A model generated the notes under the pieces. It searched no databases. It was not told the DNA's origin and saw nothing but the letters and a program-made list of their open reading frames with translations. From Desulfobaculum xiamenense (GTDB lineage Bacteria > Desulfobacterota > Desulfovibrionia > Desulfovibrionales > Desulfovibrionaceae), in contig NZ_JAATJA010000001.1 in the NCBI RefSeq assembly GCF_011927665.1, positions 1,159,019 through 1,223,018 on the forward strand: 64,000 nt of DNA. Reading direction: 5' to 3'. Both the position numbers and the translations under genes were made by a program. Shown piece by piece: positions 27,268 to 55,942 of this stretch; position 1 is the first letter of the stretch, and the number at the start of each line of letters is the position of its first letter.

Positions 27268-27918
27268 TCAGAAACGTTCCGTCTTGCGTTCCCATTCCTG
27301 CACGGCGTCGGCGTCCTCCACTTCCTCCCAGCCGGTGAACATGGCCGTAATGTGCGCCCAGACGCTATGGCCGGTGGTCGTCATGTAGACATGAATGACG
27401 ATGAAAGCCACGAGCGCGAAGGCCAGCGCCGTATGCACGAAGGCCAACCCGTCGAGGCTCAGAACTCCGGTCAGCCCAAGCGCGGGCCAGTCGTTGAAGA
27501 ACATGTAGAGCAGGCCAGACCCCATCTGCACCGGCAGAAGCAGCGCGGCAAGAGACAGATAGGTCAGCCGCTGCAAGGGATTGTGCTTGGCGCGGGTGGT
27601 CTTGGGCACGGGATGCGCCTCGCCCCGGAAGATGCCGATTGCGTAATAGCGTGCCACCTCGATGACCTTGCGCGTGGTGGGCACGTACTGCCGCCATTCT
27701 CCTGTGGTAATGATCCAGAACACGATGAAGGCCCACAGCACCACCCAACTCCACGCGCAAAACTCATGAATGTCGTGGGCGCGCTCGAAGCCAAACAAGG
27801 TGAAGGAGCCGTGCAGCTCGAAGCCCGTAAGCGCGAGGACCGAGATCAGCGCCGCCTGCGCCCAGTGCCAGAAGCGCTCGAACCGCGTATAGAGATACAT
27901 CTTCTCCATGGCTTTCAT
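27268..27918 (-). CDS. b-type cytochrome, membrane subunit
   Basis: A 216-residue integral membrane protein with four to five helices and histidines placed for two b haems (RFWHWAQAAL, HDIHEFCAWSW, FVHTALAFA, IHVYMTTTGH). It resembles the cytochrome b subunits of [NiFe] hydrogenase, formate dehydrogenase and tetrathionate-reductase-like systems and would exchange electrons between the quinone pool and its partner. It begins four bases after the stop of the octaheme cytochrome gene and is probably its membrane partner. AGGAG seven bases before the ATG supports the start. Confidence 0.82.
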   Translation of the reverse strand: MKAMEKMYLYTRFERFWHWAQAALISVLALTGFELHGSFTLFGFERAHDIHEFCAWSWVVLWAFIVFWIITTGEWRQYVPTTRKVIEVARYYAIGIFRGEAHPVPKTTRAKHNPLQRLTYLSLAALLLPVQMGSGLLYMFFNDWPALGLTGVLSLDGLAFVHTALAFALVAFIVIHVYMTTTGHSVWAHITAMFTGWEEVEDADAVQEWERKTERF

Positions 27919-27922
27919 GGCG

Positions 27923-29578
27923 CTACTCCTTTGCCTGCTCGTTGGACCATCTGCGGCGGGTGACCATGCGTATCGCGCCATGGATGCCCACGCCGATCAG
28001 GCAGACGGCCACAAGGCCCCAGCCCGCCATGTCCAGCGCCCGATTGCCGTCACGTCCGGGCATGTAGAACCCGGCGAGATTCGCCAGCCGTCCATTGCGC
28101 GAATGGCACTGCCCGCAACGCAGAGCGTCTGCCTTCGGTGCCACCATGTGCGTGGTCGGAAACACCCACTCGGTTTCCACGAAACCGTACTCGCCGGAAT
28201 ACTCCAATCCCGCATACGCCATGCCGGAGCGGATGGCGGCGGCCCAGTCGTAGGTCTTCCAGTAGGCGGCGTCGTCCTTACCAAACAGGTGGGCGATGAC
28301 CATCGTATTTCGCCCCTTGTCGTAGGGCGTCTTTCCGCGATGGACCTTGAAGGGCATGATGCGCGAACGCGGATCGCCATACTCGCCCTCGGGCCACGAC
28401 AGCCGCACCACACCGGAGGGGTCGATGGTGTCCGAGGCGCGGACAGACTCGATCACGCCGTTGTACCAGTAGTATTCGGGGCGAACGTTGGTCTCCCAGC
28501 GGAAACTGCCCTTCTTGCTGTCGTAGCTCGGCAGGCCAAGAGGTCCCTTCTCCGCGTAGGGCTTGCCGTCCTTCTTCTTCCCGGCCGTGGACCAATCCCA
28601 GTACATCTTGGTGGGATTCTCGCGGGCGAACTCGGGGATATGGCAGGCCTGACAGGCCACGCGGTCCGTGTGGTCGTTAGCCTTGTGCCCGGCCCGGTGC
28701 GGAGTTGCGCCATGGCAGGACTCGCACATGATCTTGGGCAGCAGGTCGTCCTCAAGCAGGCTCTTGCGCTCCGTGGCGGCGGGGTTGCTGTAGATGCGAC
28801 CGGCTATGTCGTGAAGCGCCGTGGTGTGGCAGCGTGAGCAGGTGAAATTCTGCCCGTCCACGCCCATATGCACGTCGAGCTTCTTCGTCGGCGTGAACAG
28901 CGAGGAATCCAGATCGCCATGCTTCACGCCGTCGCCGCCGCCACCGTAGAAGTGGCAGGTGCCGCAGTTGCGCCGCGAGGGACGCCCCACGCTCTGCGCG
29001 ACGGCATTGTAATCCGGCGGATAGAACATGTCGTTTCCGCCGAACTTCGTGGGTTCCTTGACGGGATAGCCCGCCATGGTGGGAAATTTCCGGTAGGTTC
29101 CCGTCTGCTCGTGACAGACGAGACAATCAACCTTGACGGGGTTCGAGAAATCGAAGGACTTGTCCTTCCATCCGTACCCGGCGTGGCATGATGTGCAACG
29201 AGCCTCGTTGCTCTGAATGTTCATTCAGAAATTGTTGATGACGAGGCCGCCCTTTCCGATCTTCAGGGCGGGGTCCTCCAGCGGATCGAGCCACGTCCAG
29301 TGGATGGTCTTGTGGAACTGTGCGGCGGCTTCGGTGTGGCAGGTCAGGCAGGCGGCCGTGACCTCCTCCGGGGTCTGGAAGGCCTGCTTGAGCACCTCGT
29401 GCTTGGAGTGGTCCGACGTGATCCACAGTGTGTGCTCCCGCGTGGCCTGCCGGGCGAGTGCGCGTCCCGGCGCGGGCCGGGCCTCCTCCTCGACGGCCAG
29501 CGCAGGCAGCGCCACCGCCAGCGTCAGCCACGCGACTGCCCAAAGCGCAATCCGACGCGACAAAACGGACGAATGCAT
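27923..29578 (-). CDS. Octaheme tetrathionate-reductase-family cytochrome c; candidate selenoprotein (in-frame TGA)
   Basis: Read through one in-frame TGA (29225-29227) the gene encodes 551 residues. A signal peptide spans 1-28. The first haem motif CLTCH is at 77-81, and the TGA codon falls at 118 after INNF. Seven more CxxCH motifs follow, giving eight only if the halves are joined; a C-terminal membrane helix precedes the stop. The sequence after the TGA (CTSCHAGYGWKD) is typical of octaheme tetrathionate reductase (OTR), and from memory homologues carry Cys at the TGA position. From memory, the Geobacter ext operon homologue is described as a '(seleno)protein' ExtKL. A SECIS-like hairpin lies 13 bases after the TGA and selC is in this window. 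If not selenocysteine, it would be a nonsense mutation or two separate genes. The substrate could be tetrathionate, nitrite, hydroxylamine or selenite. Confidence 0.85.
29195..29227 (-). promoter_or_regulatory. UGA codon and candidate bacterial SECIS hairpin
   Basis: On the minus strand TGA at 29227-29225 is followed by 13 bases, then GCAACG (29211-29206), the loop AGGCT and CGTTGC (29200-29195). The six-base-pair perfect stem, five-base loop with G near its start, and 19-base distance from the TGA to the loop fit the bacterial SECIS rule. The loop is close to the AGGTCT loop of E. coli fdhF (recalled). Confidence 0.65.
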
Positions 29579-29686: not shown

Positions 29687-30109
29687 CTACTGGCAGCAGG
29701 TGCCGTCTTCCTCGTGGCTGATCTGCGAGAGCGTGATGGAGTCGAGGATGGAATTCATGGCGTTGGTCGCCTCGATCCACACCGCGCGCACATTGCATGT
29801 GGCGGCGCGCTTGCATTTCCCGGAATCGCCCACGCAGTCGGTCAGATTGATACCGCCTTCAAGCAGCCGGACCACCTCGCCCACGGTGATTTCCTCGGGC
29901 GCGCGGGTGAGCATGTGCCCGCCCTTGGGTCCGCGCACGCTATCGAGATACCCACCCCGCTTGAGCGGCCGAATGAGCTGTTCCAGATACTTGACCGAAA
30001 CGCCAAGCCGTCTGGAGATGTCGCTCACGGATACGGGCTGGCCGTTGCCATTGCGCGCGATATCAATCAACATTCTGGTTCCATAGCGGCTACGAGTGGA
30101 AAGTTTCAT
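29687..30109 (-). CDS. Rrf2-family transcriptional regulator
   Basis: A 140-residue winged-helix repressor. The start MKLSTRSRYGTRMLIDIA and the recognition helix SVKYLEQLI are family hallmarks. Cysteines at 92, 99 and 105 (C-x6-C-x5-C) match the [Fe-S] ligands of IscR/NsrR-type members, so it may sense NO, oxygen, iron or sulfur species. It sits between the two halves of the cytochrome cluster and precedes the octaheme gene by 109 bases, so it probably controls that gene and itself. A perfect palindrome at 30154-30169 is a candidate operator. The start is set by the family N-terminus. Confidence 0.9.
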   Translation of the reverse strand: MKLSTRSRYGTRMLIDIARNGNGQPVSVSDISRRLGVSVKYLEQLIRPLKRGGYLDSVRGPKGGHMLTRAPEEITVGEVVRLLEGGINLTDCVGDSGKCKRAATCNVRAVWIEATNAMNSILDSITLSQISHEEDGTCCQ

Positions 30110-30153
30110 GCCTACGCCCCCCGGCAGAGAAATCGGTCTTTGGTTCACAGGAC

Positions 30154-30169
30154 TGTCCGCAAGCGGACA
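30154..30169. promoter_or_regulatory. Candidate operator palindrome upstream of the Rrf2 gene
   Basis: TGTCCGCAAGCGGACA is a perfect 16-base palindrome, seven bases per arm, 45 bases before the Rrf2 start codon. Rrf2 regulators bind short dyads near their own promoters, so this is a reasonable autoregulatory site. It is inferred from position and symmetry only. Confidence 0.4.
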
Positions 30170-30269
30170 CCCTTTTGCTTGCCGGGAACGTACATCTTTA
30201 GCCGAATTTTTCCAACCATTTTCCCCAAATGCAGTAGGAATTGCATCCACCTACGATTTCTAACGGATT

Positions 30270-30749
30270 TCAGAAATTTCGCTCACCATCCGCACGATAC
30301 GCTATCCGCCCGCCGACGAGCGCCACTAGCGCGAACACGCCCAGAAGCACCGCCGCCGCCAGATGCCCCCAATCGATCAGCATAACAGTCATCGGCGAAA
30401 ATGACACGTCCGGCATATTCTTGAGCACGCGCACCACGCCCGTGCCGATGAGTAGCGCAATGCTCGCCGTGCGCAGCCACCCCGTCACCGTGAGCCGCCA
30501 ACCGCGCTCCAGCGCGAAACGCGTAGCGAAATGGAAGGCCAGCGCGAGGAACACGGCTGCCGCCGCATAGTGCATGGCATGGGTGAACACAAAATCCGCC
30601 GTCCAGCCGAAGCCCGGAATATCCGCGATGTAGTAGCGCTTGAAGATCGGCATCTGGGCCATGCCGCTCACGGCCAGCGTCCAGCACGCCAAGAGGTACA
30701 GCCACCTCATCCAGCCGCATCCGTCCTTGGGGCACGATCTAGCGGTCAT
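30270..30749 (-). CDS. Small b-type cytochrome membrane protein
   Basis: A 159-residue protein with four membrane helices and paired histidines (FTHAMHYAAAAVFLALAFH and IDWGHLAAA) that can hold b haem. It resembles DUF4405/cytochrome b561-like quinol-oxidising or quinone-reducing subunits. Its start overlaps the stop of the Fe-S protein gene by four bases (ATGA), so the two form a membrane-bound electron-transfer pair. Together with the octaheme cytochrome and the second b-type cytochrome it recalls the cytochrome b/Fe-S parts of Geobacter ext operons. The assignment is by architecture. Confidence 0.7.
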   Translation of the reverse strand: MTARSCPKDGCGWMRWLYLLACWTLAVSGMAQMPIFKRYYIADIPGFGWTADFVFTHAMHYAAAAVFLALAFHFATRFALERGWRLTVTGWLRTASIALLIGTGVVRVLKNMPDVSFSPMTVMLIDWGHLAAAVLLGVFALVALVGGRIAYRADGERNF

Positions 30750-31687
30750 CTCCGCCCCCCCTTGCGCATGGCGCTAACGAAGGTCAACACGCCCGCCGCA
30801 ACGCCAACCACCGGGGCGGCCAGCACCGCGCGGGCGAGGTGCTCGTCGTTCCCCATCACGTCCTCCACCTCCGCCAGATGCGGGCGTCCCGGCCCCTTGT
30901 CGAGCGCGGCGTTCAGTTCCTCAAAGGGCACTGGAAACACGTAGAAAGTATTGGTGCCCCCGTTCTCGCGTTCGCCGTACACGAATCCGCCCATCTCCTC
31001 GGCCAACGCATGCGCACGCTCCAGCATGACCGAACGCGGGCCGATCTGCTGCACGTCCTGCGGGCAGGCCTCGATGCAGGCCGGAAGCTCGCCCTGCGCA
31101 ATGCGATCGTGACAGCGGTCGCACTTGTACATCACGCCGTTTCCGGCAAGGGAGGGCAGCAGGTCGAGATACAGCCCCACCCCGGTCTGCCGCTGGGGAA
31201 TGGACCACGGGCACACGGTGCGGCACTTGGCTCCGCCGAGGCAGATGTCCGCGTTGATGCGCACGATGCCGTTGGACTCCTTGGCGGCGGCTCCCCACGG
31301 GCACAGATTGGCGCAGGGCGGATTCACACAGTGCAGGCAGCGCCGAGGGATGTTGAGTTCGACGGACTCGCCGCCACGCTCCACTGTGGCGGTCTGGATG
31401 AACAGCCAGTTGTAGGGCGTCAGTCGGTCATCCACGTCGCGCCGCTCGGACCAGTCCTCGGCCTTGACCCGCTCGGGGTACATGCGCGGAAAGGGTTTCG
31501 TCGGCTCCGGGAACTTGTGCGCGTTTGACTCGCGGCAGGCCTCGACGCAGGCCCCGCAACCGATGCACTTGGATATGTCGAGGAGGGTGGCAAGCTCCTC
31601 GCCCCGCTGCCCGGCCTGCGCCGTTTCAGGCAGCGTCAGGGCAAGGCCGCCCGCGCCAATGCTCTTCAGAAAATCTCGTCTGTTCAC
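30746..31687 (-). CDS. TAT-exported tail-anchored [4Fe-4S] electron-transfer protein (HybA/DmsB type)
   Basis: A 313-residue ferredoxin-like subunit. The N-terminus RRDFLKSIGAGGLALTLP is a twin-arginine signal. Four cysteine groups follow: CIGCGACVEAC, CLHCVNPPCANLC, CLGGAKCRTVC and CDRCHDRIAQGELPACIEAC. The third group has Gly in place of the usual second Cys, so that cluster may be [3Fe-4S] or absent. A C-terminal membrane helix at about 285-305 would anchor it to the periplasmic face. I chose GTG at 31687 because it places the twin arginines at the start and has AGAGG upstream; a TTG at 31735 opens the longer frame. It heads the cytochrome cluster. Confidence 0.85.
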   Translation of the reverse strand: MNRRDFLKSIGAGGLALTLPETAQAGQRGEELATLLDISKCIGCGACVEACRESNAHKFPEPTKPFPRMYPERVKAEDWSERRDVDDRLTPYNWLFIQTATVERGGESVELNIPRRCLHCVNPPCANLCPWGAAAKESNGIVRINADICLGGAKCRTVCPWSIPQRQTGVGLYLDLLPSLAGNGVMYKCDRCHDRIAQGELPACIEACPQDVQQIGPRSVMLERAHALAEEMGGFVYGERENGGTNTFYVFPVPFEELNAALDKGPGRPHLAEVEDVMGNDEHLARAVLAAPVVGVAAGVLTFVSAMRKGGRR

Positions 31688-31801
31688 CTTGTGTTCAACC
31701 TCTTGCCCCAACGGGCGGTTTTCGATCGAACCCAATTGTTGCAGGGAGCGTCACCAAAGGCAAGCCCACGAGGGAATCGGACGAATGCTGGCGGGAATGG
31801 A

Positions 31802-55848: not shown

Positions 55849-55942
55849 GGAGGGACGTCTCATCCGGTGATGGGCGCGGGCTTCAAACCCGTAGGATCGT
55901 TGAGAAACGATTGGCAGGTTCGACTCCTGTGTCCCTCCGCCA
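55849..55942 (+). tRNA. selC: tRNA-Sec (anticodon TCA)
   Basis: A 94-base tRNA with the special selenocysteine form. The acceptor stem has eight base pairs (GGAGGGAC with GTCCCTCC), discriminator G and encoded CCA. The anticodon loop CTTCAAA reads UGA. A long extra arm (GATCGTTGAGAAACGAT) and T arm GGCAGGTTCGACTCC follow. This shows that the organism inserts selenocysteine at UGA codons, which bears directly on the TGA inside the octaheme cytochrome gene at 29225. selA and selB are not in the window. Confidence 0.97.

Follow-up and report, generated by a model that had tools for sequence, protein, structure and literature searches.

The octahaem tetrathionate reductase (OTR) of Shewanella is a periplasmic protein, purified on its own and able to reduce tetrathionate, nitrite and hydroxylamine, with haem II as its catalytic haem (PMC4484225, in its accessible part). 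In Desulfovibrio, an octahaem cytochrome (OhcA) is encoded together with an Fe-S protein (OhcB) and a haem b protein (OhcC), as the gene set OhcB-OhcA-OhcC, DVU3143-DVU3145 (accessible part of PMC4641369). Two papers, in their available portions, treat Ohc as a complex that transfers electrons rather than as a terminal enzyme (PMC4641369, PMC6491731), the second tabulating it with the assumed redox partners TpIc3/MQ, i.e. cytochrome c3 and menaquinone. The octahaem homologue DVU3144 goes up under sulfate limitation and has been tied to hydrogen cycling (PMC4543118), and a related module combines a tail-anchored Fe-S protein, a HybB-like protein and an octahaem cytochrome (PMC10924467).

Selenium has been associated with this family in a table of a 2026 review, where TIGR04315 is given as a selenoprotein family ("GenBank annotated", WP_331457571.1); in the available part of that review the entry, which like the gene described here has one Sec, is confined to one line of the table that gives neither motif nor function (PMC13188914). 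The gene described here is a further member of this already listed family. Beyond that table line, among the open-licence papers listed we found none that deals with the function, the Sec site or the SECIS of an octahaem or Ohc protein containing Sec, and the word "cytochrome" is absent from the available main text of PMC12013277. As far as the literature searched reaches, what is added here is the division of the SECIS into two classes, the decay of hairpins and the connection with Ohc. ExtKL of Geobacter (NF040886) is comparable in being a multihaem cytochrome with a predicted Sec, encoded in an electron-transfer gene cluster, but it is a pentahaem protein and belongs to a different family. 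The original prediction had named it as the Geobacter homologue, which we rejected: the window proteins matched eight families at E 0.001, and NF040886 was not among them.

The gene lies in a 64,000-nt stretch of the Desulfobaculum xiamenense genome (the window), on the minus strand at positions 27923-29578. When TGA is read, this frame stays open over 551 codons, the sole in-frame stop before the terminal one being the TGA of codon 118 (29225-29227, minus strand). The product carries one CxxCH motif before the TGA (residue 77) and seven after it (residues 128, 152, 205, 247, 285, 309 and 488), so the early claims that a single TGA separates two halves of one frame, and that eight haems exist only in the read-through product, both stand. 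Its N-terminus is hydrophobic and, by eye, typical of a signal peptide. The list of open reading frames splits the gene into 117 (29225-29578) and 433 residues (27923-29224), the second starting at an ATG that is the codon directly 3' of the TGA; mechanical ORF calling cuts such a selenoprotein gene in two. The read-through protein matches TIGR04315 with 637 bits (cut-off 375) over profile positions 2-440 of 440, which makes the gene ohcA-like, of the tetrathionate reductase family.

Shewanella OTR (PDB 1SP3) aligns with the read-through protein at E 2e-126. Counted on this alignment, the TGA corresponds to position 64 of the 1SP3 chain, the Cys in INNFC, while Asn115 and Lys219 correspond to Asn61 and Lys153; the Asn61/Cys64/Lys153 set is thus kept as Asn115/Sec118/Lys219, with residue 118 probably selenocysteine. 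We take Lys153 to be the ligand of haem II, and Cys64 presumably lies near this haem; Sec118 stands 10 residues ahead of the haem II motif. An AlphaFold2 model (40-row alignment, mean pLDDT 79) was used for a structure search, in which 1sp3 alone reached E 0.001 or better, with a TM of 0.85 by target length, so that family and fold are both shared with OTR; note that the loop bearing the haem II lysine (213-222) is of low confidence in the model. The model also has a hydrophobic C-terminal helix at residues 513-550. This helix, the Sec in place of Cys and an adjoining haem b gene set the present protein apart from OTR.

The haem b gene (27268-27981, minus strand) encodes an ohcC-like membrane subunit of the haem b561 type (Ni_hydr_CYTB) and overlaps the 3' end of the cytochrome gene. 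Among genes for which 900 nt or more of downstream sequence was at hand, a haem b gene follows within 700 nt in 111 of the 114 genes whose product has a hydrophobic C-terminal stretch (71/72 Cys and 40/42 Sec forms), versus 1 of the 31 genes without such a stretch. On the other side, an ohcB-like gene (30746-31735, minus strand) encodes a 4Fe-4S relative of HmcB/HybA. This protein possibly has a Tat signal, which scores 21.7 bits where the Pfam cut-off is 22.7. Close homologues of the ohcB-like gene (64-72% identity) occur, among the loci listed, only in L039, L048, L119 and L120, and weaker Fe-S relatives adjoin other genes, mostly with 13 motifs. As in the Desulfovibrio Ohc set, octahaem, Fe-S and haem b proteins are thus encoded together, and given this association with ohcC and ohcB the octahaem gene is best called the Sec-OhcA of an Ohc complex.

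Unlike the Desulfovibrio set, ohcA here contains a UGA, and two genes separate it from ohcB. One (30270-30749, minus strand) encodes a 159-residue protein, hydrophobic by eye and matching no Pfam family over cut-off, which adjoins ohcB in some near relatives and may be an extra membrane subunit. The other (29687-30250, minus strand) encodes an Rrf2-family regulator whose domain starts at residue 48, so its true start is probably internal. This regulator gene lies inside the ohc gene set both in the window and in L039. By eye, three cysteines lie near the middle of the protein, spaced as in Fe-S sensors, so that it may respond to redox state or NO through an Fe-S cluster. For the Desulfovibrio Ohc, a sigma-54 regulator has been described.

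To situate codon 118, related genes were drawn from 149 relatives, 395 genomes of the phylum and 65 named loci of public genomes. The relatives and the phylum genomes gave 68 and 78 matches over the TIGR04315 cut-off, 141 of them distinct. Exactly one inner TGA was present in 47 of these 141 matches, the 47 coming from 18 family codes, and TAA and TAG in none (a count by hand on two tables, consistent with tallies of 58 and 69 genomes); all 47 TGAs fall at column 118. Below the cut-off, at least two TGA matches and at least one TAG match were found in the phylum genomes, and one TAA match among the 149 relatives. Overall, column 118 in 165 segments from 175 loci is Cys in 109, TGA in 53, Tyr in one, Lys in one and not covered in one, in agreement with the original prediction that homologues have Cys at this residue; the Tyr and Lys belong to weak paralogues, each under 130 bits. 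The 53 TGA segments are the 47 above, four named loci (L039, L043, L051 and L058) and two weak segments (L171 and L172). At 300 bits or more, the TGA at column 118 is found in 51 genes, the window included, of which two are DNA duplicates. Two close relatives (L027 and L028, 72 and 74% identical) also have it.

For a stricter comparison, we excluded matches below 300 bits, dropped five partial rows and merged identical rows, giving an alignment of 151 rows in which the window protein stands twice. Column 118 is Cys or Sec in 151/151 rows (102 Cys, 49 Sec), as constant as the haem cysteines, and Asn115 and Lys219 are invariant in all 151. Other in-frame TGAs in the aligned stretches are at columns 548-549 of five genes, at the C-terminal end, and at column 7 of one gene (L077); the former were taken as true stops, and the latter likely precedes the start.

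Among the named relatives, TGA occurs in three Thermodesulfobacteriota and one Proteobacteria record, and the named Cys forms come from Bacteroidota, Chloroflexota, Planctomycetota, methanogens, Thermodesulfobacteriota and others. Outside the phylum, we looked for the Sec form in 301 genomes of the phylum of G536, the Anaerolineales genome that holds L057; 12 of them gave 13 matches over the cut-off, none with a TGA. In ten genomes of other groups, 12 matches passed the cut-off, two of them again from G536, and these likewise had no TGA.

Directly 3' of the window TGA, the RNA can form a hairpin (29195-29211, minus strand) with a 7-bp stem, GCAACGA/UCGUUGC, and a 3-nt loop, GGC (29202-29204), that starts 20 nt past the UGA. 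According to the available part of PMC13188914, a bacterial SECIS has a loop of 3-9 nt with a G in positions 1-2, a stem of 4-16 bp, a position 16-37 nt after the UGA and a minimum free energy of -7.5 kcal/mol or lower. With -9.0 kcal/mol for 38 nt, the window hairpin passes these rules, which bears out the SECIS-like hairpin of the original prediction. Against shuffled sequences it is by itself unremarkable (z of -0.59, -0.63, -1.48 and -3.57 for 50, 52, 38 and 91 nt, respectively); its significance comes from the comparison between genes and not from the energy of a single fold. Note that a search of the hairpin region against Rfam gave no SECIS family but one chance hit (E 8.4), and that at gathering thresholds the whole window yields tRNA-Sec only. 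An exact 20-mer of the hairpin occurs in 3 of the 395 phylum genomes, once in each and every time in the octahaem gene, while its reversed control occurs in none of the 395.

We compared codons and stems in 22 type A Sec genes, 27 type B Sec genes and 101 Cys genes, 15 of the 165 rows having been skipped (six duplicates, the others without the residue or without CxxCH at equal distance). Type A, to which the window belongs, reads Asn-Glu-Ala/Ser-Arg ahead of the haem II motif, and type B reads Asn-Trp-Cys-Arg/Ser. In type A genes, codons +5 to +10 after the UGA are fixed: AGC or GGC, AAC, GAG, GCT or TCT, CGT, TGC. The AAC, GAG, CGT and TGC are identical in 22/22 genes, the Ser codon at +5 is AGC in 19/19 and the Ala codon is GCT in 20/20; one type A gene, that of G279, escaped the 20-mer pattern because it begins with GGC. 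Codons +11 to +18 (Thr, Ser, Cys, His, Ala, Gly, Tyr) are variable in type A, and in the Cys genes codons vary throughout the compared region.

The type B genes (L126, L136, L137, L140, L142, L144, L147, L149-L151, L153-L156 and L158-L170) share another stem, CUGGUGC/GCACCAG, with the loop AGGU or AGUU 24 nt past the UGA. This hairpin is unrelated in sequence to that of type A, lies a few bases further 3' and is paired with Trp-Cys ahead of the haem II motif. Complete type A stems occur in 22/22 type A, 0/27 type B and 0/101 Cys genes, and complete type B stems in none of the type A, 27/27 type B and 0/101 Cys genes, with a compensatory change of a C-G to a U-A pair in L169; as the compared genes are related by descent, these counts are not independent trials. 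When bSECIS constraints i-iii were combined with a helix of -7.5 kcal/mol or lower in the minimum-energy fold, 21/22 type A genes (the window among them, L108 being the exception), 27/27 type B genes and 0/101 Cys genes passed. Constraints i-iii alone are passed by 9 of the 101 Cys genes, eight of them with a whole-fold (47-nt) energy of -7.5 or better.

The RNA element also appears to set the residue two before the haem II motif, since at that position Sec genes carry Ala, Ser or Cys but 75 of the 101 Cys genes carry Pro. Three genes that encode Cys but branch among type A genes (L035, L042 and L118) have kept Ser-Asn-Glu-Ala-Arg-Cys, and differ from the hairpin by 4, 2 and 2 bases, all synonymous, so that 4, 6 and 5 of the 7 pairs are kept, respectively. 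The simplest reading is that these genes reverted from Sec to Cys and that a SECIS no longer needed is decaying.

In a quick tree of the 151 rows from which columns 118-128 were excluded, at least 12 exchanges between Sec and Cys are needed; internal branch supports are mixed, and gain is not separable from loss or transfer. Both deep halves of the tree contain type A, among eight-motif OhcA-like proteins and among 13-motif paralogues (L104-L109), and type B forms one group of 23 and, separately, L167-L170.

The machinery for selenocysteine is at hand. The tRNA-Sec gene selC, placed in the window by the original prediction, was located at 55849-55942 (plus strand), and selA and selB, on which that prediction depended, were found over cut-off in the genome, as was selD. 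The genome's selD (L174, G000:C5:132442-133365) itself has one in-frame TGA, and so is probably a selenoprotein gene too. We also considered whether SelB separates Sec from Cys forms, using 80 of 100 chosen genomes. An over-cut-off SelB is encoded in 43 of the 45 Sec-form genomes, the two misses being drafts, and in 34 of the 35 Cys-only genomes; this criterion was rejected, nearly all genomes having SelB, and the machinery does not explain the choice between Sec and Cys.

From the conservation, hairpins, machinery, family and gene neighbours described above, the gene very probably encodes a single 551-residue selenoprotein, Sec-OhcA. SelB carrying Sec-tRNA would bind the hairpin just 3' of UGA-118 and insert selenocysteine, and the chain would be exported and then loaded with eight haems. 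OhcA would be the octahaem subunit of a membrane Ohc complex, its C-terminal helix anchoring it beside the haem b protein OhcC, and Sec118 would take the place of the OTR Cys64 near haem II. The menaquinol pool or periplasmic cytochrome c3 could supply electrons, via OhcC/OhcB, to the haem chain, where Sec and haem II may jointly reduce a small sulfur or nitrogen oxyanion, a periplasmic reductase being the most likely function. Because the site residues are unchanged in all rows and Cys is the sole alternative to Sec, we lean towards the Ohc octahaem subunit being an enzyme, probably a reductase, rather than a wire. The broader proposal, on which we are evenly divided, is that in many Desulfobacterota-type bacteria this subunit is a selenium enzyme in whose active site a selenolate is paired with a c-type haem ligated by lysine, and that the SECIS has fixed the protein sequence from Sec to haem in two ways, as Glu-Ala-Arg or as Trp-Cys-Arg.

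Selenocysteine might also be inserted into a mere conduit between cytochrome c3 and menaquinone, where it would tune haem II or guard the protein against oxidation, without any substrate. We regard this as possible but distinctly less probable. It agrees with the redox partners assumed for Ohc in the accessible part of PMC6491731 and with the rise of DVU3144 under sulfate limitation and its tie to hydrogen cycling (PMC4543118), but a pure wire would hardly need the equivalents of Asn61, Cys64 and Lys153 to be invariant (counting Cys and Sec as one) in 151/151 rows, and at least 12 changes between Sec and Cys with nothing else in the column fit a catalytic residue.

Three other readings concern the TGA itself, and each was judged unlikely on the evidence against it. 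Were it a true stop, two proteins would be made, the second from the ATG directly after it in the window; yet that codon is Met in only 6/22 type A and 3/27 type B genes, and otherwise Ile or Val, and the Cys relatives cross column 118 in one frame. The second half, moreover, has by eye no signal peptide although haem is attached to c-type cytochromes outside the cytoplasm, and the hairpin and the codon invariance would be left without explanation, which makes this reading very improbable. A sequencing error or a fresh nonsense mutation in a pseudogene would take a single base change from TGC or TGT to TGA, but is hardly credible when 51 genes scoring at least 300 bits share the TGA at column 118, each with one or the other hairpin after it, and the 47 over-cut-off TGA matches span 18 family codes with no TAA or TAG. 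That UGA is read as another amino acid, by a suppressor or a code change, is just as implausible, given selC, selA, selB and selD in the genome, a hairpin that fits the SelB-dependent mechanism and Cys as the only other residue in column 118.

If Sec-OhcA is made as proposed, a widespread respiratory cytochrome would have selenium at what is presumed to be its catalytic haem, and the question "carrier or enzyme?" becomes testable with Sec, Cys and Ser forms of the protein. The switches, at least 12 in number, the two hairpins at one site and the decaying hairpins offer a natural series on what Sec buys a cytochrome, and on how an RNA signal constrains the sequence beside an active site.

Two weak segments, L171 (from 2790, plus strand; 157 bits) and L172 (from 1015, minus strand; 142 bits), also place a TGA at column 118, but they align poorly, their surrounding sequence differs and a G+C-rich hairpin is present. 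Each could be another Sec variant or a genuine stop, and both were excluded from the codon, stem, SECIS and 151-row group counts. A larger paralogue class with 13 CxxCH motifs (L104-L109 and L113-L118) also alternates between Sec and Cys at column 118. Its Sec members carry the type A hairpin, and an HmcB-like Fe-S gene lies near 10 of these 12 loci.
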